Assembly: GCF_001432305.1 (NCBI RefSeq) | Contig: NZ_KQ483358.1 | Span: forward strand, 749,928-813,927 | DNA: 64,000 nucleotides | Source of the DNA: Curvibacter sp. PAE-UM | Lineage (GTDB): Bacteria > Pseudomonadota > Gammaproteobacteria > Burkholderiales > Burkholderiaceae_C | Direction: 5' to 3' | Shown: one piece after another, positions 57,201 through 64,000 of the stretch | How the letters are laid out: each line of letters opens with the position of its first letter | Numbering within the stretch: the first letter of the stretch is position 1 | Translations under genes and position numbers: made by a program | Notes under the pieces: model-generated | The model's input: the letters and a program-made list of their open reading frames with translations, nothing else | The model's database searches: none | Told to the model about the DNA's origin: nothing

Positions 57201-58172
57201 ATGCATTTCCTCAAGGGCCAGTCCCCGCGCACCATCGGCATCGCGGCGGCGGTCATCACCGTCGGTATCTGGACTGCCTTCATCGTCATCGCCCGCGCCT
57301 CGGCCCAGGGTTCGCTCGGCCCCTTCGATATTGCGCTGGCACGCATCATCGGCGCCAGCGCCGTGCTGCTGCCCCTGGGCTGGTGGCTGGTGCGGCGTGA
57401 TCGCATGCAGGGGGCGGACACGGCCTCGTCCTTCTTCGGCCTGTCGCCACTGGCGCTGCGCGTGACGGCGCTGTGCGGTCTGTTCGGTGGTTTCGGTTAT
57501 GCCCTGCTGGCCTATGCGGGTTTCTTCTACGCCCCGGCGGCACACGCCTCGGTGCTCATGCCGGGCAGCCTGCCGCTGTGGACCACGCTGCTGGCGGCGC
57601 TGATGCTGGGCACGCCCATCCTGCCGGCGCGCATCATCGGCCTGGCCTGCATCGTGGGGGGCGACCTGCTGGTGGGCGGGGCCAGCCTGCTGCGCGCCTT
57701 CGAAGGCGGCGAGGTCTGGAAGGGTGACCTGCTCTTCATGAGTGCGGCCCTGAGCTGGTCGGCCTACAGTGTGCTGGCGCGCCGTCACGGGCTGGATGCC
57801 GTGCGCGCCACGACAGCGGTCACCGTGTTCGCGCTGTTCAGCTACCTGCCCTTTTATCTGCTGCTGCAGGGACTGGGCGCCATCGAGAGCCGGCTGTTCA
57901 CCGCACCGCTGGGTGAGCTGCTGTTCCAGGTGGTCTTCCAGGGTGTGGGCTCGGTGGTGATCTCGGGCATCACCTTCGTGCGCATGATCCAGTATTTCGG
58001 CCCGGTGCGCTCGACCATGATCACGGCCCTGGTGCCCGGCCTCTCGGCCCTGGGCGCTGTCATCTTCCTGGGCGAGCCGCTGCACGCCAACCTGCTGGCC
58101 GGCCTGGTGCTGGTGACGGTGGGCATCACCTTCGGGGTGCGCAAATCGGCGCAGACCGCCGGCAAGGCGTAG
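57201..58172 (+). CDS. EamA/DMT-superfamily transporter
   Basis: This 323-aa protein has ten predicted membrane helices in two EamA repeats (about residues 12-145 and 175-315), a layout shared with drug/metabolite exporters. Substrate is unknown. ATG at 57201 is in a suitable position relative to dacB, from which it diverges. It is convergent with the NACHT-like nuclease gene, only 12 nt away, which marks the left edge of the unusual operon. Confidence 0.9.
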   Translation: MHFLKGQSPRTIGIAAAVITVGIWTAFIVIARASAQGSLGPFDIALARIIGASAVLLPLGWWLVRRDRMQGADTASSFFGLSPLALRVTALCGLFGGFGYALLAYAGFFYAPAAHASVLMPGSLPLWTTLLAALMLGTPILPARIIGLACIVGGDLLVGGASLLRAFEGGEVWKGDLLFMSAALSWSAYSVLARRHGLDAVRATTAVTVFALFSYLPFYLLLQGLGAIESRLFTAPLGELLFQVVFQGVGSVVISGITFVRMIQYFGPVRSTMITALVPGLSALGAVIFLGEPLHANLLAGLVLVTVGITFGVRKSAQTAGKA

Positions 58173-58184
58173 CGGCTCCAGGGT

Positions 58185-61100
58185 TTACGTCGTCTGGGGC
58201 GGGGGCAGCGAGCAGTCCAGCACCAGCACGGCGATCTTGTGCCGATGCTGCTCCGGGATGCTGGTCGTCAGCCGTTGTTGCAATTCAGCCGGGGTTTTTG
58301 GGCGGGTGCCGCCGTCGAGCGGAGTGGCCTTTTGCCAGGAACCGCCGAACCATAAGACCAGATAGAGGCCGAAGCCGCCGCACGCTGGGTCGCGAGTGTA
58401 TTTGGCAATCAATTGCGCTTCGATGGCTTTCCACAGATCGGGGTTCCATTCGCATTTGATCTCGATCGGAATGCTGTAGCCCTCGGCCGACACCTTGATA
58501 TCGGCGCGCTTGTCGTCCGCGTAGCGTACTTCCGGCTCGGCGGTGATGGTCAGCGATTCAAGACGCAGCTTCAAGTCGGAAAGCAAGGCGTTGCGGCACT
58601 CCTCCTCTGACTTGGGCTTGGCGTCGGCCCAGTATTGCCGGTAGTCATTGGTGTTCTCATCGCGTATTCGGCGGATGAGCTGGCGCAGGTGGTCCTGCGT
58701 GAGCGCCCACAGATCGGCGGCGCTGGCTGGCTTCAGGTTAGCCAGCGTGTTGCAGACCCTGAGCACGCCGGCGGGCTGGAAGTGGGCCTTGCGGCGGGTG
58801 ATCTGCTGGTCGAAAATCGCGCGCCTCAGCACCTCTTTCCAATGAGTTAACTTTGGATTGTTCTGTAAACGGGTCAAAGCCTCCGTGGCTTCGTGGTCGG
58901 GTAGTCCGGCCAGCGTCGTGAAGAGACCCTCAAGGAAGCTACCCAGCTCCATGGCGGGGGTTACCCAACCGGCTCCTGACCGCCATGTCCGCGGATTGCT
59001 ACGCGGTCCTAGCAACTGAATCAAAAGCTCCAGCACAGCGACGGGCCAAACAGGGCGAGGATCATCTCGCTCCTGGCGCTGCGCGCGCAGGAGATCGGCC
59101 AAGTGGCTGCCGCGCAGCTGTGATTGACTAACATAGTGGCGGGGGGGCTCCAGGTACAGCGTGGGGGCGAGCTGCAAGCCCGCTCCCAGCCAATAGACGT
59201 GCTGGGCGACATCCAGGGATTTGTCGCTCAATTTCGCGGCGATGAGGTCGAGCGCAGCGTCTTTGTCGAGCCGGTGGAGTGCCGCCGCGATGAGCAGGCG
59301 CAGGCTACCCAGTTGTCTTTTGTGTGCCTTGGCAGGAAAGCGCGCAATCAATGTCGGCACGATCTCGCGCGCCAGCGCGGCGTAATCGGGGTCATGGGCC
59401 AGTTGATACAGACCGGAGACGTGTTCTTTCTTTGCTGCAATCTCGTTAGTGGCGAGCGGTAGCATGACGCGAGCCAGAATATCGGGGCGCGTGACCAACA
59501 GCGACTTGAACCACTTGGGGCGGTTTTCGTAGTCGTTGGTCAACCGGAAGGCGACCACGGTTTCCAGCAGATTGTCCGGCAGCGCCAATGCTGTGGCGGG
59601 GTCTTCTTCCTGGCGTAGCGCCATCGCGGCCAGACAGGGTGTGGCCAGGTTGTAGCGGCGTTGCTTGGCATGAAGATCAAGGATGCCCTGCATCGACGGC
59701 AAATCCTTGCGCCACAGGCACTGGCGCAGGCCGTGCAGTGCCTGCCTCACCCAGTCGTGATCTTGATTCAACAGATTCAGCAGCCGCTCTTGCGGTGTGT
59801 CGCCTGGAGTGTCATGAAAGAAATGAAGGTAGGCGTTGCCGACCGCGACGAGTGCGCCCAAATCCGCTGCTTCCGTTTGGAAACTGGGCAACGCTTTGCG
59901 AAAGAATTCAATTTTTTGCCGCTCTTCTTCTTCGATTCTTCGCTTGTGCTCGATCTCAAAATTGATGTGTTCCTGCTCTGGGGCGTTGGGTGGATAAGGA
60001 CACTGCAGGAATCCGTCTATCCATGGCACATCGCCGTGATGAGTCGTGCGCAATGCTTCCAGCAATTCGAGCGCTGGGTCGATGCCAGATGTGCGCTCGG
60101 TGAAATAGAAGGCCATGGCGAGCAAATGCCGGCGCTGGGCATCCGGCGTCATTTTGCTGGCTAGTCCCAGATACCATTGGTCCGCATCTGGAGGCTCCGG
60201 CGCCTGATAGAGAAGCTTTTGCAGTTGCCAAAAGGTGAGGCCAGCGTTCTGCTCGTCGAGTTGCTGTTGCAGTCCGTATTCGAACAGAGCTTTGTAGCGA
60301 TCAGAGTGAACCCTCAACCATTCACGGATGGCGGATTGATGCTCGTGGTCAAGGGGACAGTAGAAGTGCGGCCCCAGGCCAAGCGAGAGCCAGCGATACA
60401 AGCGAGGTACATCGATTTCGGTGCCGTAAACCGTTAGTCCACGGCACAACAGCTTGCCGATGATATCGGCGGAATCCCGCCGATCGCGCTGATTGTCCAG
60501 TTGGTAGCCCTGAGCGATCAAGGCGTCCAGCAAGATGGGAATGTCCTCGACGGGCGCGTATTTGTCCGCTAAGTGATGCCAGAACTCCCAATAAGCGCCG
60601 ATAAGAGCATCGGACTTGGGTTTCTGGAAGTAGCGCCAGAGGGTGACGGCGGGAATCTGCCCCGGGTAAAGGGTAGCTAAGAGGGTGCCGAACAGTTCGT
60701 CTTCTGCATCCTTGACGCGATCTGCGGCAATGTCCTGCAGCAGTTGTAAAGAGACGGACCAATTGTTGGTCTGTTTCTCTTGTGCGAGTAATACACGCAA
60801 GGCCTCGGCACGCGAACCAGGCCAATAGCTCGCATCGCGAATTACCTGCTCAAGTTCCGATTTGAGACCCGGCATGGCTTGTCCGTGTGCCAGCGCATCG
60901 AGCACGCAGTCCACCAGAGCGAGGTGAGGTGGACCGCGGTCAGGAGAAGTTAGCACCGCGCGGAAGGCCTCTTCCATGTCGGCTGTGGCCAGGGCGCCAA
61001 ACGGCTCGCTGCTCCAGTCCTGGCTGCGGAAGAAGGTGTAACGCCGGGCTTCTTGGCCTAGTGCTTCCAGCACCTTCAGTTTTTCCGCACGCCTGAAGTC

Positions 61101-62270
61101 GTGCACGTCACCGTAAAGCACGACGCCTAGCGGATCGTGCGTGATTAGCTCCGCACGTACGTCGCCGATGGTTAAGGCAGCCAGCCAGGCGTGCAGGCCG
61201 CGCAGCTCGGGCACGGTGCCGCCGTCCTCGCCCAGCATCAGCGTCAGCAGGCGACCTGTTGGCAGGCCCGCTTGGAGGCGTTCCAGCAAATACCGAGCCC
61301 CCAGATACTCCGCCACCGTGCGGTGCACGGGATAGAACAGGCCGCCCGCACCCCGGAACAAGCGGGTGCCCAGGACCGCACGGCAGCTAGCCCACTCCGG
61401 CGTGCCGGGGAGCTGGGTGGGCAGATCGTTGAGGGCGAACGAATCGGTCGGCGTGTTGTCCGCTCGCTGCAACGCCCAGGATGTTTTGCCAGACAGCAGC
61501 AACACGGCGCATAGGTATTCGGCCGCGCGCAGCAATTCGGTATGCGGGTGTGGGGCTTCGTGCTGGGCGGCGCGATGTTCCGGGCTTGCTTCCCTGACCA
61601 GCTCGGCGCAGGCTTGGTCATAGGTTTGCAGCCGGCTGCCGGGCCAGCCGCTGGCGGTCGCTTTGACCAGCATGCGCAGGTTTTGCGGGTTGTCGAGCAA
61701 GCCATCAAGCCCACGCCGTTCAGCTTCCTGGAGAAAGACATCGGCTTGTTCGGCGTCTGTACTGCGCCAGAATGCCACCAGCGTTCGCTTCTCCTCGCGG
61801 CTCAAGGGTTCCAGATGCAGTTCGAGAAAGTCCTGGGGGCCGACGAGCCTTTGGAGTGCGGCGCTGTCTGCGCTGCCGCGCCAGTCCGCTTCGCGGCAGG
61901 AGATGCGAAAGCGCGGCACGCCCAGTGCCTGTAGCTTGGCGCGTATGCGACCCAAGGCGGTGTCGCCAGGCGCGGCGCCGGAGGAAATTTCGTCGAGCCC
62001 GTCGATGAACAAGGGCTCGTGCCAGTTGTTGCCGGGGCCGATTTCCACGAAGTCACGCGCGCTGAGACAGGTACCCTCTTCGGCCTGGTTGCGCTCCGTG
62101 AAAACATCACTCTTACCGGCTCCAGGGTCGCCGATCAGCACCCAGGCGTGTACTCCGCTGTAATGGCTGACGGGTTGAGAATCTGGCTGTCGCTCGCCTT
62201 GTGCCGTGCGCACGCGCACCCTGCGCTCAAGCGGCAAACGGTCTGGTGCGGACGCGACGGGGGTATTCAT
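58185..62270 (-). CDS. NACHT-like STAND NTPase with C-terminal PD-(D/E)XK nuclease domain
   Basis: This 1361-aa protein has a P-loop GDPGAGKS at residues 47-54, a NACHT-type Walker B LFIDGLDEI (87-95) and a conserved basic segment ISCREADW near 123, then a very long all-helical region resembling HEAT/TPR repeats. The C-terminal end contains D1257 (RADIKV), E1270-I-K1272 (IPIEIKCEW) and Q1286/Y1291 (QLIAKY), the pattern of PD-(D/E)XK nucleases. NACHT-type ATPases of this sort act in anti-phage defence (Avs and bNACHT groups), but those known to me carry effectors at the N-terminus, so the order here is reversed. Its ATG overlaps the stop of the DUF4143 gene (62267-62270). GC is visibly lower than in flanking genes. 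The effector function is inferred. Confidence 0.8.
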   Translation of the reverse strand: MNTPVASAPDRLPLERRVRVRTAQGERQPDSQPVSHYSGVHAWVLIGDPGAGKSDVFTERNQAEEGTCLSARDFVEIGPGNNWHEPLFIDGLDEISSGAAPGDTALGRIRAKLQALGVPRFRISCREADWRGSADSAALQRLVGPQDFLELHLEPLSREEKRTLVAFWRSTDAEQADVFLQEAERRGLDGLLDNPQNLRMLVKATASGWPGSRLQTYDQACAELVREASPEHRAAQHEAPHPHTELLRAAEYLCAVLLLSGKTSWALQRADNTPTDSFALNDLPTQLPGTPEWASCRAVLGTRLFRGAGGLFYPVHRTVAEYLGARYLLERLQAGLPTGRLLTLMLGEDGGTVPELRGLHAWLAALTIGDVRAELITHDPLGVVLYGDVHDFRRAEKLKVLEALGQEARRYTFFRSQDWSSEPFGALATADMEEAFRAVLTSPDRGPPHLALVDCVLDALAHGQAMPGLKSELEQVIRDASYWPGSRAEALRVLLAQEKQTNNWSVSLQLLQDIAADRVKDAEDELFGTLLATLYPGQIPAVTLWRYFQKPKSDALIGAYWEFWHHLADKYAPVEDIPILLDALIAQGYQLDNQRDRRDSADIIGKLLCRGLTVYGTEIDVPRLYRWLSLGLGPHFYCPLDHEHQSAIREWLRVHSDRYKALFEYGLQQQLDEQNAGLTFWQLQKLLYQAPEPPDADQWYLGLASKMTPDAQRRHLLAMAFYFTERTSGIDPALELLEALRTTHHGDVPWIDGFLQCPYPPNAPEQEHINFEIEHKRRIEEEERQKIEFFRKALPSFQTEAADLGALVAVGNAYLHFFHDTPGDTPQERLLNLLNQDHDWVRQALHGLRQCLWRKDLPSMQGILDLHAKQRRYNLATPCLAAMALRQEEDPATALALPDNLLETVVAFRLTNDYENRPKWFKSLLVTRPDILARVMLPLATNEIAAKKEHVSGLYQLAHDPDYAALAREIVPTLIARFPAKAHKRQLGSLRLLIAAALHRLDKDAALDLIAAKLSDKSLDVAQHVYWLGAGLQLAPTLYLEPPRHYVSQSQLRGSHLADLLRAQRQERDDPRPVWPVAVLELLIQLLGPRSNPRTWRSGAGWVTPAMELGSFLEGLFTTLAGLPDHEATEALTRLQNNPKLTHWKEVLRRAIFDQQITRRKAHFQPAGVLRVCNTLANLKPASAADLWALTQDHLRQLIRRIRDENTNDYRQYWADAKPKSEEECRNALLSDLKLRLESLTITAEPEVRYADDKRADIKVSAEGYSIPIEIKCEWNPDLWKAIEAQLIAKYTRDPACGGFGLYLVLWFGGSWQKATPLDGGTRPKTPAELQQRLTTSIPEQHRHKIAVLVLDCSLPPPQTT

Positions 62271-63532
62271 GCCGGTTCGAGCCAATGCGACAGCGGATAC
62301 GAGAGAAACTCAGTGAGCGGCACGCCCCCAGCACCAACTAGCAGGCGGCGGCAATGTGGATGCTGGTTTGTGAAGGCTTGCAGGCCGTCCAGCGCCCCTT
62401 GGCGGGTAGTGCTCTTGACTTCAATAGCCGTGAGCCGCTGGGCATCGGAAATCACGAAGTCCACCTCGTGCGGACTCTCACGCCAGTAGTGGACTTGCTC
62501 CGTGCTGCCGGCCGTGTTGCACAAATGCGCGCCGACCGCGCTTTCGACCAGACGCCCCCAGTGGGATCGGTCTGCCCGTGCCTGTGCAAAGGTGTAGGGC
62601 ATGGCGCTGGACATGAGCGCCGTGTTCAGCACGTTGAATTTTGGGGGCGACTTGCGCTGCCGGGCCACGCCACGATGGTACTTGTGCAAGCCGACCAGCA
62701 AGCCCGCGTGGCCCAGCAAGTCCAGATAACCGGCCAGGGTGGTCTCGTTGCCGGCGTCTTCCAGCTCGCCCTTGACCTTGCCCAGCGCGAGGATTTGCCC
62801 GGAGTAGCTGCAACCCAGCGTGAAGAGCTGCTTGAGCAGCGCGGGCTTGTCCACGCGCGTCATTTGCAGGATGTCGGTATCGATGCTGGGCTGCACCAGG
62901 CTGCCCAGCACGTAATTGCGCCAGCGTTCTTCTTCGCGGATAAACGGGGCGCTGCCTGGGTAGCCGCCGAAGTACACGTATTCGTCCAGCGCGAAATCGA
63001 AGGCTTCCTGCATCTCGGGATAGGACCAATGCGTGAGGGGGATCAGTTCATAACGACCGGTCAAGCTTTCGGTCAGACCTTTCTGCATCAGCAGTGGCGA
63101 ACTGCCGAGCAGGATGACGTGCATGGGCAGGTTGGCGGCGCGGTCGGCATCCCACAGGCCCTTGACGACTTCCGACCAGCGCGGGATTTTCTGGATTTCA
63201 TCGATGGCGAGCACAAAGGGTTGATCTTCGTGCCGGGTTCGATGCGCCTTGCAGGCCTCGCGCGCGCGCTGCCACTGGCGGATGAGCCAGGCGGCATCGC
63301 GCGGTGCGCCGGGCAGTTCGGTGGTGGATTCCGCTACGAAGCCGAAGGGTGGCCGCGAGGGGGGCTCGCCATATTGGTCGACGGCGATAAACTGCGAGGC
63401 CACGTCGGTCAGCGCGGCCCGGACCAGCGTGGTCTTGCCGACTTGGCGCGGCCCGGCCACGATGGTGATGAAACGGGGAGCCTCGGCGAGCCGTTCCCGC
63501 AGTGCCTTGGTTTGTGGTCGTTCGTACCGCAT
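62267..63532 (-). CDS. AAA_14/DUF4143 family ATP-binding protein
   Basis: This 421-aa protein has Walker A AGPRQVGKT (26-34), Walker B FVLAIDEIQ (D111, E112) and a C-terminal DUF4143 domain that ends with D358 and E371-V-K373, also a PD-(D/E)XK-like pattern. AAA_14/DUF4143 genes are widespread and mostly uncharacterised; many are accessory and linked to defence or toxin-like systems. The most likely start is MRYERPQ at 63532, but there is almost no room for a ribosome site because a 26-bp palindrome ends 2 nt away; an upstream in-frame ATG at 63613 would read through it. The gene is coupled to the NACHT-nuclease by ATGA. Confidence 0.86.
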   Translation of the reverse strand: MRYERPQTKALRERLAEAPRFITIVAGPRQVGKTTLVRAALTDVASQFIAVDQYGEPPSRPPFGFVAESTTELPGAPRDAAWLIRQWQRAREACKAHRTRHEDQPFVLAIDEIQKIPRWSEVVKGLWDADRAANLPMHVILLGSSPLLMQKGLTESLTGRYELIPLTHWSYPEMQEAFDFALDEYVYFGGYPGSAPFIREEERWRNYVLGSLVQPSIDTDILQMTRVDKPALLKQLFTLGCSYSGQILALGKVKGELEDAGNETTLAGYLDLLGHAGLLVGLHKYHRGVARQRKSPPKFNVLNTALMSSAMPYTFAQARADRSHWGRLVESAVGAHLCNTAGSTEQVHYWRESPHEVDFVISDAQRLTAIEVKSTTRQGALDGLQAFTNQHPHCRRLLVGAGGVPLTEFLSYPLSHWLEPA

Positions 63533-63534
63533 AA

Positions 63535-63560
63535 AATACTGAGTAAATTTACTCAGTATT
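63535..63560. promoter_or_regulatory. 26-bp perfect palindrome before the DUF4143 gene
   Basis: The sequence is perfectly self-complementary over 26 bp, with GTAAATTTAC at its centre. It occupies the position of the ribosome site and leader of the DUF4143 start, and lies between this gene and divergent tsaB. It looks like a regulator-binding operator, or the start of transcription may be very close to the ATG. It was not matched to a known factor. Confidence 0.8.
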
Positions 63561-63619
63561 GTGGTCGTCGATCTTTTCTGCGTCAAGACGGGGTTTTGAT
63601 CGCGCATCTGCAAAAGGTT

Positions 63620-64000
63620 TCATGAAACTGCTCGCTTTCGACACCAGCACCGAGCTGATCTCCATCGCCGTGACGCGGCAGGTGGATGGCCAGGCCCGCA
63701 TGTGGCAGCACACCGGCGCGGGTGGTGCGCAGGCCTCTAGCGCGATGATCCCGGCCATCGAGACCCTGATGGCCGAGGCCGGACTGAGGTTCGAGGAACT
63801 CGACGCCATCGCCTTCGGCCGCGGGCCGGGCTCCTTCACCGGCCTGCGCACGGCCTGTGCCGTGGCCCAGGGCCTGGGTTTCGGCGCCAATGTGCCGCTG
63901 CTGCCGGTGGACACGCTGCTGGCGGTGGCCGAGGAGGCGCGCGCGCAGCAGGCACCGCAGCAGCAAAACCTGCGCCTGCTGGCCCTGCTCGACGCCCGCA
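63620..64000 (+). CDS. tsaB: tRNA threonylcarbamoyladenosine biosynthesis protein TsaB (partial)
   Basis: The first 127 codons of TsaB are present, truncated by the end of the window. It begins KLLAFDTSTELISIAVTRQ and has the conserved FGRGPGSFTGLRT near residue 72. TsaB is an inactive kinase-fold partner of TsaD in the t6A complex. AAAGG lies upstream of the ATG at 63620. It borders the right edge of the NACHT operon and is divergent from it. Confidence 0.95.

Follow-up and report, generated by a model that had tools for sequence, protein, structure and literature searches.

A STAND-type NTPase–nuclease gene and a DUF4143 ATPase gene form a conserved two-gene cassette with a promoter palindrome in Curvibacter sp. 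PAE-UM

The two genes of the locus

The window considered here is a stretch of 64,000 nucleotides (nt) from Curvibacter sp. PAE-UM (contig NZ_KQ483358.1), and its subject is a pair of genes, called N and D, preceded by a perfect palindrome (Table 1). Judging from its motifs and relatives, N most probably encodes a STAND-type protein for defence, with a nucleoside triphosphatase (NTPase) module first and a nuclease last. D, which lies upstream and is overlapped by N through ATGA, encodes an ATPase of AAA_14–DUF4143 type, and the two genes are an overlapping operon inherited as a unit. The initial annotation had described N alone, as a candidate new defence family. This one-gene view was incomplete, the conserved unit being the two-gene operon together with its promoter palindrome, and the family is not new because the NCBIfam model EruA covers N from end to end (HyoA, also named in NCBIfam, is further off). 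Treatment of N as a single-gene system was dropped once D had been seen upstream of it in two relatives (L002 and L007; loci are numbered with the prefix L) and subsequently in the majority of 80 loci.

Table 1. Features of the two-gene cassette, numbered from the first letter of the window
Feature	Position	Strand	Basis
N gene, EruA-like NACHT-type STAND NTPase with putative C-terminal PD-(D/E)XK nuclease, 1361 aa	58185..62270	-	translation; NCBIfam NF058535, 982 bits, residues 27–1354
N Walker A GDPGAGKS, residues 47–54	62109..62132	-	K53 in 83/83 sequences with letters
N Walker B DGLDE, residues 90–94	61989..62003	-	D90, D93, E94 in 83/83
N fastest-diverging middle, residues 526–825, candidate sensor	59796..60695	-	mean identity 0.65–0.71
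N C-terminal nuclease region (putative), residues 1222–1354	58209..58607	-	AlphaFold2 pLDDT 91.1; Foldseek best E 0.014
N catalytic set D1257 ... E1270-x-K1272 (E1270-I-K1272) ... Q1286xxxxY1291	58398..58502	-	85/85 sequences
D gene, AAA_14 + predicted winged helix + DUF4143 (PD-(D/E)XK) ATPase, PDC-S01 type	62267..63532	-	Pfam; PADLOC PDLC04791 537 bits; AlphaFold2
D Walker A GPRQVGKTT	63428..63454	-	K60 in 68/68 sequences, window included
D Walker B D138-E139	63197..63202	-	68/68
D predicted winged helix, residues 277–328, putative DNA-binding part	62630..62785	-	AlphaFold2 helix-helix-strand-strand, model residues 250–301
D PD-(D/E)XK set D385 ... E398-V-K400, E357 upstream	62414..62461	-	E357, D385, E398, K400 in 68/68
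Putative operator, perfect 26-bp palindrome, core TGAGTAAATTTACTCA at 63540–63555	63535..63560		directly before D start
-10-like box CACAAT, extending into left arm of palindrome; relatives' consensus TACNNT	63558..63563	-	
-35-like box TTGACG, 17 bp from -10 box	63581..63586	-	
Inserted cassette between EamA-type transporter gene (stop 58172) and tsaB (start 63622)	58173..63621		site empty in 19/19 same-genus loci

The N frame begins at an ATG (in the open reading frame list an alternative TTG lies five codons further 5′), and translation places 46 residues before the P-loop. Translation and alignment confirmed the chain, the P-loop and the Walker B motif as initially annotated. Conservation was measured in an alignment of 85 sequences, namely the window protein and 84 relatives, in which K53, D90, D93 and E94 are kept in all 83 sequences with letters there, and D1257, E1270, K1272, Q1286 and Y1291, the D...EIK...QxxxxY set noticed at the outset, are constant throughout. 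In a more divergent set of 11, including two members above the EruA cut-off (L004 and L005), the invariant residues are E1247 and these same five. Over 21 independent pairs, divergence is fastest in residues 526–825 (mean identity 0.65–0.71), residues 1051–1125 are likewise low (0.70), and the slower stretches are 76–225, 301–375 and 1201–1350 (0.80–0.85). Because it diverges fastest, the middle (526–825) is proposed as the likely sensor of N, in keeping with the early suggestion that sensing would come from the middle of the chain.

A PD-(D/E)XK fold for the C-terminus is supported by motif, conservation and structural model taken together, rather than by search scores. The AlphaFold2 model of residues 1095–1358, built from 64 aligned C-terminal regions, has a predicted local distance difference test score (pLDDT) of 91.1 and a predicted template modelling score (pTM) of 0.71. 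Its nuclease elements run helix-strand-strand-strand-helix-strand, which is the PD-(D/E)XK order; D1257 sits at the base of one strand, and the strand that follows bears E1270-x-K1272. The portion ahead of the nuclease is helical, so that the long helical body announced for N holds for the part modelled. Many of the best Foldseek neighbours belong to what we take to be the PD-(D/E)XK class (Can1 6sce, SfsA 4dap, Hjc 2wcw, HindIII 2e52, Can2 and Cdn1). Pfam support for the fold is thin: DpnII-MboI is touched by 1/64 C-terminal regions at an expectation value (E) of 0.0011, and the best match of the window's own C-terminus is FhuF (E 0.0058, below cut-off). A search of PDB by sequence gave two chance-level matches for the C-terminus (E 0.24 and 0.76) and no relative for whole N or its N-terminal region.

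The label 'NACHT' had also been given to N, and it stems from the NCBIfam name. N does carry the motifs of a NACHT/STAND NTPase (Walker A GDPGAGKS and Walker B DGLDE), DGxDE-type Walker B being a motif of this group, but in the strict Pfam sense the assignment is tentative. For the whole window protein no Pfam family appears at E ≤1 and the NACHT family PF05729 stays below its gathering score; 5/29 aligned N-terminal regions touch PF05729 (best E 0.043), and such regions also touch nSTAND3 (E 0.0026) and AAA_22 (E 0.007).

The closest named family is NF058535, 'NACHT domain-containing antiphage protein EruA', which N matches with 982.2 bits over profile positions 11–1318 of 1318. The equivalog cut-off of 1000 bits is missed by 18 bits, so that N is a full-length EruA homologue narrowly failing the NCBI equivalog test. 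Relatives that are paired with D straddle this cut-off (L034 with 1048 and L056 with 1108 above, L105 with 868 below). The EruA model is matched at E ≤1e-10 in 3/60 genomes, the window's own included. A same-genus genome (L003) holds a distant relative, whose frame of 1451 aa matches the EruA model at E 2e-45. In the window's own genome, a frame of 1286 aa (L164, C1:3019073-3019915) weakly matches NCBIfam antiphage_ProA, at 38 bits.

For D, the start was set at ATG 63532, residue 28 of the listed TTG open reading frame. Both Pfam domains score above their gathering thresholds (AAA_14 70.1 versus 27; DUF4143 82.9 versus 28.1), and PADLOC PDLC04791 (PDC-S01) matches with 537 bits over profile positions 1–394 of 395, whereas no NCBIfam model reaches its cut-off (best YraN, 18.9 bits versus 109). 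The AlphaFold2 model of D (pLDDT 90.8, pTM 0.90) has as its nearest structures PAB2304 (2qen), ORC/Cdc6 proteins and SSO1545 (2fna), and further down its neighbours include Dark and RPP1, which are of NLR type; searching PDB by sequence returned five weak P-loop matches, three of them recA. D is the more conserved protein, with a median pairwise identity of 57% versus 37% for N, and the stretch of the predicted winged helix is among its best-conserved parts. A second DUF4143-type gene, 26% identical to the window D, lies about 2 kb upstream of one related cassette (L060:5018-6310).

Inheritance of the gene pair

Pairing was assessed in the best 80 of 396 genome relatives, those most like the window protein, and a locus was counted as having room for D if 1400 nt or more precede the N match, as is so in 71/80 loci. 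D adjoins N upstream in 65 of these 71, with at least 350 matched residues in 63, the stop-split D of L039 among them, and as fragments in two (L048 and L081). Among the nine loci with shorter upstream sequence, L037 and L072 hold nearly whole D, L031, L055, L068 and L101 hold its end, and L050, with 154 nt, is too short to judge. Some trace of D is thus present in 71/80 loci from 11 phyla by NCBI record assignment. Many of these records are metagenome bins, and one of the phyla is counted on the strength of a terminal D piece of 32 residues (L068). The pair is also carried by a viral contig (L119). Fusion of the two genes was looked for and occurs in none of the loci compared.

Trees and distances point the same way. 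In a tree of 86 D proteins, a branch with support 100 separates the 70 paired D from the rest, and the paired/unpaired label changes once, where shuffled labels (86 rows) change 15 times on average; L031, L039, L101, pieces under 300 aa (L131 and L133) and duplicates were left out. The tree of N, with 99 proteins, gathers most of the paired ones in one broad clade and requires at least five changes between paired and partnerless states. Both trees were made with FastTree only and carried long-branch warnings. The correlation of distances among N with those among D is 0.934 over 67 pairs, while 1000 shuffles, a control that ignores relatedness of sequences, gave 0.154 at best. Three Pseudomonas proteins (L089, L104 and L109) are EruA-like and have no DUF4143 partner, yet are nested among paired N in the tree; L089 (1215 bits) and L104 (1178 bits) lie above the EruA cut-off.

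D, for its part, was followed in 23 loci. N is found downstream in five (L125, L127, L140, L141 and L142); among the other 18, L131–L133 end inside D and L134 and L137 have less than 350 nt downstream, leaving 13 loci in which about 1.5 kb of room holds no N. These solitary copies, the occurrence of N without D and the listing of D as a candidate of its own in PADLOC are what would be expected if N alone were the defence system, as EruA is named, and D (PDC-S01) a separate candidate defence gene travelling along with no direct cooperation. Against such an account stand the single branch of paired D, the 65/71 adjacency, the gene overlap and the matched divergence, and it is judged unlikely, though the strongest of the alternatives.

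A toxin–antitoxin-like arrangement, in which D would act as an antitoxin that binds N and represses the operon until infection removes it and frees the N nuclease, is judged unlikely. Gene order, short overlap and promoter palindrome do recall type II operons, and the better conservation of D would fit. However, N persists without D in six loci (L047, L089, L092, L104, L108 and L109) and beside a fragmentary D in L048 and L081, no D is seen at L004, L005 or in the plasmid relatives L022–L028, and the nuclease and ATPase residues of D are retained in 68/68 sequences. The six or more loci in which N has been retained without D tend to speak against a strict antitoxin role of D.

The palindrome and its promoter

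The core TGAGTAAATTTACTCA was found with at most four mismatches in the last 50 nt before D in 67/67 distinct readable paired loci, as against 0.75% of shuffled 50-mers. Duplicates (L049, L125, L127, L140 and L141) were dropped from this count, loci with the D start off the contig or with fragmentary D were left out, and the start at each locus was taken as the ATG, GTG or TTG nearest window residue 28. The match is exact in 17 loci, with one mismatch in 27, two in 14, three in six and four in three, and the palindrome lies 4–23 nt from the D start, mostly at 11 or 18–19. Its arms change in sequence yet stay complementary, at positions 9, 12, 13 and 18 in 60–69% of loci versus 27–39% for re-dealt arms (a control that ignores relatedness). 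In loci L030–L119, 59/62 core matches with at most two mismatches fall within 140 nt upstream of D. Upstream of N in 23 partnerless relatives, the best core match has 5–8 mismatches, i.e. the palindrome is lacking.

Promoter-like boxes accompany the element. The left arm contains a conserved TAnnnT (T 58, A 54 and T 62 of 67), preceded at a distance of 17 bp by a TTG box (T 69%, T 57%, G 67%), and a TTGACA-like box with at most two mismatches occurs at 16–18 bp in 30/67 loci, where 11.2% would be expected. The -10 box and the transcription start of a sigma70-like promoter thus seem to lie under the palindrome, where a repressor would bind.

The palindrome goes with D and not with N, as judged from loci in which the core stands at D-like genes. 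It occurs with at most four mismatches in 110 nt at 10/18 D loci without a seen N. When genomes were scanned for the pattern TGAGTAANNTTACTCA next to any gene, it appeared in 11/369 and 9/349 genomes (the two samples overlap, and the window's own genome is in both), and 9 of 19 pattern loci adjoin a D-like gene or piece; 10 do not, including L173, which is cut by a contig end, and pattern loci alone were examined. Among the nine, L167 is the window itself, L165 is 27% identical, L176, L181 and L183 are pieces and L172 is cut by its contig. D itself is the putative binder of the palindrome. Viral contigs gave 0 and 0 matches to two exact patterns of the extended palindrome.

Variant arrangements were noted as well. 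Two tandem copies precede D in L088, L090, L093 and L033, about 66 bp apart in L088, where a third core match lies at 1644. A core copy is found just downstream of N in L097 (14113) and L101 (5038), so that the element may stand at both cassette ends in their clade. Solo or fragmentary DUF4143 genes (L170:1501, L176:1501 and L183:1501) show four alternating half-sites, TACTCA-n6-TGAGTA-n4-TACTCA-n6-TGAGTA or close variants, and not the paired form.

The element could also be read as an RNA hairpin controlling D translation instead of a DNA operator. Its nearness to the start codon, the covariation of the arms at the four positions given above and an excess of G·T over A·C mismatches (61 versus 43) would suit a hairpin. 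So would the folding energy of the window element (−18.9 kcal/mol, z −5.2), although any palindrome folds. The left arm, however, is a -10-like box 17 bp from the conserved TTG box; the transcript should therefore begin within the core and not include the left arm. Rfam gave no match in 58000–64000. Such a hairpin is more doubtful than an antitoxin role of D.

Insertion, proposed function and known systems

An EamA-type transporter match is present in 18/25 other genomes of the genus, at 19 loci; tsaB follows it at 0–74 bp in all 19, and neither N nor D occurs within their 1.5-kb flanks. In the window the two genes are 5.4 kb apart, the space being filled by N, D and the palindrome. The pair is thus a compact unit, found here and absent from 19/19 same-genus loci, and gain of the cassette in this lineage is the simpler reading. 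No convincing terminal repeats marking a transposition target were seen at the cassette ends. A third conserved gene was considered and rejected, the three commonest neighbour clusters occurring in just 8, 7 and 7 of 81 loci, and a defence-island setting is not supported by the neighbour scans, which covered 117 of 258 counted flanking genes from paired and partnerless loci alike. Among seven plasmid relatives examined, two have Ppl and Abi or SIR2 genes nearby.

The expectation that orthologues would lie in defence contexts rather than in core metabolism was borne out in part: no orthology to core metabolism was seen, but the neighbours elsewhere are mostly non-defence. A housekeeping role for the ATPase pair would fit those neighbours and is nevertheless very improbable, given the patchy presence of the genes (EruA model in 3/60 genomes), the empty sites within the genus and the naming of relatives as antiphage.

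With moderate confidence, the D–N unit is regarded as a mobile two-gene antiphage cassette, NLR-like, in which D represses the operon while N senses phage and cuts DNA. Beyond the gene pair and its promoter, and the catalytic residues that both proteins keep, the steps are proposed because of the motifs and of what the available part of a report on bNACHT proteins (PMC12169576) says. D, as a dimer or higher oligomer, would bind the palindrome through its winged helix and repress the operon, holding both nucleases low, and nucleotide-bound N would be kept in a closed state. On recognition of a phage product by the fast-evolving middle of N, the NACHT module would open; N would then assemble, and its C-terminal nuclease would cut DNA, halting phage replication or the cell. 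D might merely set the dose, or might join the complex as a second ATPase–nuclease, and since its catalytic residues are invariant, a role beyond repression is favoured.

A variant gives D the leading part. As a DNA-sensing guard, its ORC/Cdc6-like ATPase and winged helix would read the state of DNA, with the palindrome as resting site; phage DNA or replication intermediates would draw D off, derepress the operon and join D and N in an ATPase–nuclease machine. This is improbable, but if true it would make the cassette a two-receptor NLR-like system whose induction and execution are coupled via one self-made operator.

Several observations weigh against the antiphage cassette with D as repressor. 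The pairing rate comes from the relatives most like the window protein, and even there D is absent in 6/71 loci with room; nothing of D is seen in the 402 nt upstream of N in L094 or the 622 nt in L103 either, and these two probably lack it. No D is seen in eight plasmid or phage loci (L022–L029) or in nine viral-contig loci (L110–L118), at least three of which have no room for it. N stays open in L048 and L081, where D is fragmentary, and in L039 a stop splits D, so that D is not strictly needed. The best Foldseek match to the N C-terminal model has an E of 0.014, and none reaches 0.001. The -35 box is no better than three mismatches in 37/67 promoters, and the mirrored control of the core pattern hit 6 and 7 genomes (of 369 and 349), so that the excess of the true core is small. 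Finally, most of the flanking genes are of non-defence kinds, and among the 117 scanned neighbours no PADLOC family is matched by more than 2.

What is new here is the D–N cassette with its own promoter palindrome, which extends beyond the stretch initially annotated and is undescribed in the databases and literature searched; none of these describes the pairing together with the palindrome. Among papers naming COG1373, PF13635, PF13173 or the core sequence, none has a defence topic in its title or the start of its abstract. The pairing gives context to DUF4143 ATPases, a family with almost no literature found, and provides the PADLOC candidate PDC-S01 with a partner and a likely operator, while the palindrome before D is a tag for finding such units. 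Searches by co-localisation cannot find systems outside defence islands, according to the accessible part of PMC13092281, and would therefore tend to miss these cassettes, which lie mostly among non-defence genes.

Among known systems, EruA is the nearest to N. Like N, it has the NTPase first and the PD-(D/E)XK domain last, and it is homologous along the entire length. The members L004 and L005, which exceed the EruA cut-off, share the invariant catalytic residues with N at identities of 20% and 22% and are without the DUF4143 partner and the palindrome, both of which distinguish the window cassette. No publication on antiphage EruA or HyoA was found in the literature searched; the EruA of PMC12839154, as far as its consulted part goes, is an unrelated SlyA-type regulator. 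Nor is there an EruB model at the accessions adjoining NF058535 (NF058533 is antiphage_ProA and NF058536 an acyltransferase). Homology to HyoA (NF058534) is remote and extends over most of the length of N, which scores 179.3 bits against a cut-off of 1200.

D strongly matches the AAA_14–DUF4143 ATPases of PDC-S01 (PADLOC PDLC04791), presumably a single-gene candidate by the meaning of S, and here belongs to a two-gene operon. Type II toxin–antitoxin operons likewise have an upstream regulator, a palindrome over the promoter and a short overlap with the downstream effector. Unlike their regulators, D is a 420-aa ATPase–nuclease and is missing in some lineages.

PADLOC, which includes Avs and other systems, has no family matching N at E ≤1. 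Avs proteins usually couple a STAND NTPase to an N-terminal effector and a C-terminal sensor. In the part of PMC12169576 consulted, STAND proteins are described as effector first and sensor last, and bNACHT25/32 as a STAND NTPase coupled to a PD-(D/E)XK nuclease that is N-terminal, with a C-terminal sensor. N, as was initially annotated, has its nuclease at the opposite, C-terminal end; this inverted, EruA-type order is kept in relatives from 11 phyla, and the second ATPase gene sets the window cassette further apart from both Avs and, so far as they are described there, bNACHT25/32.

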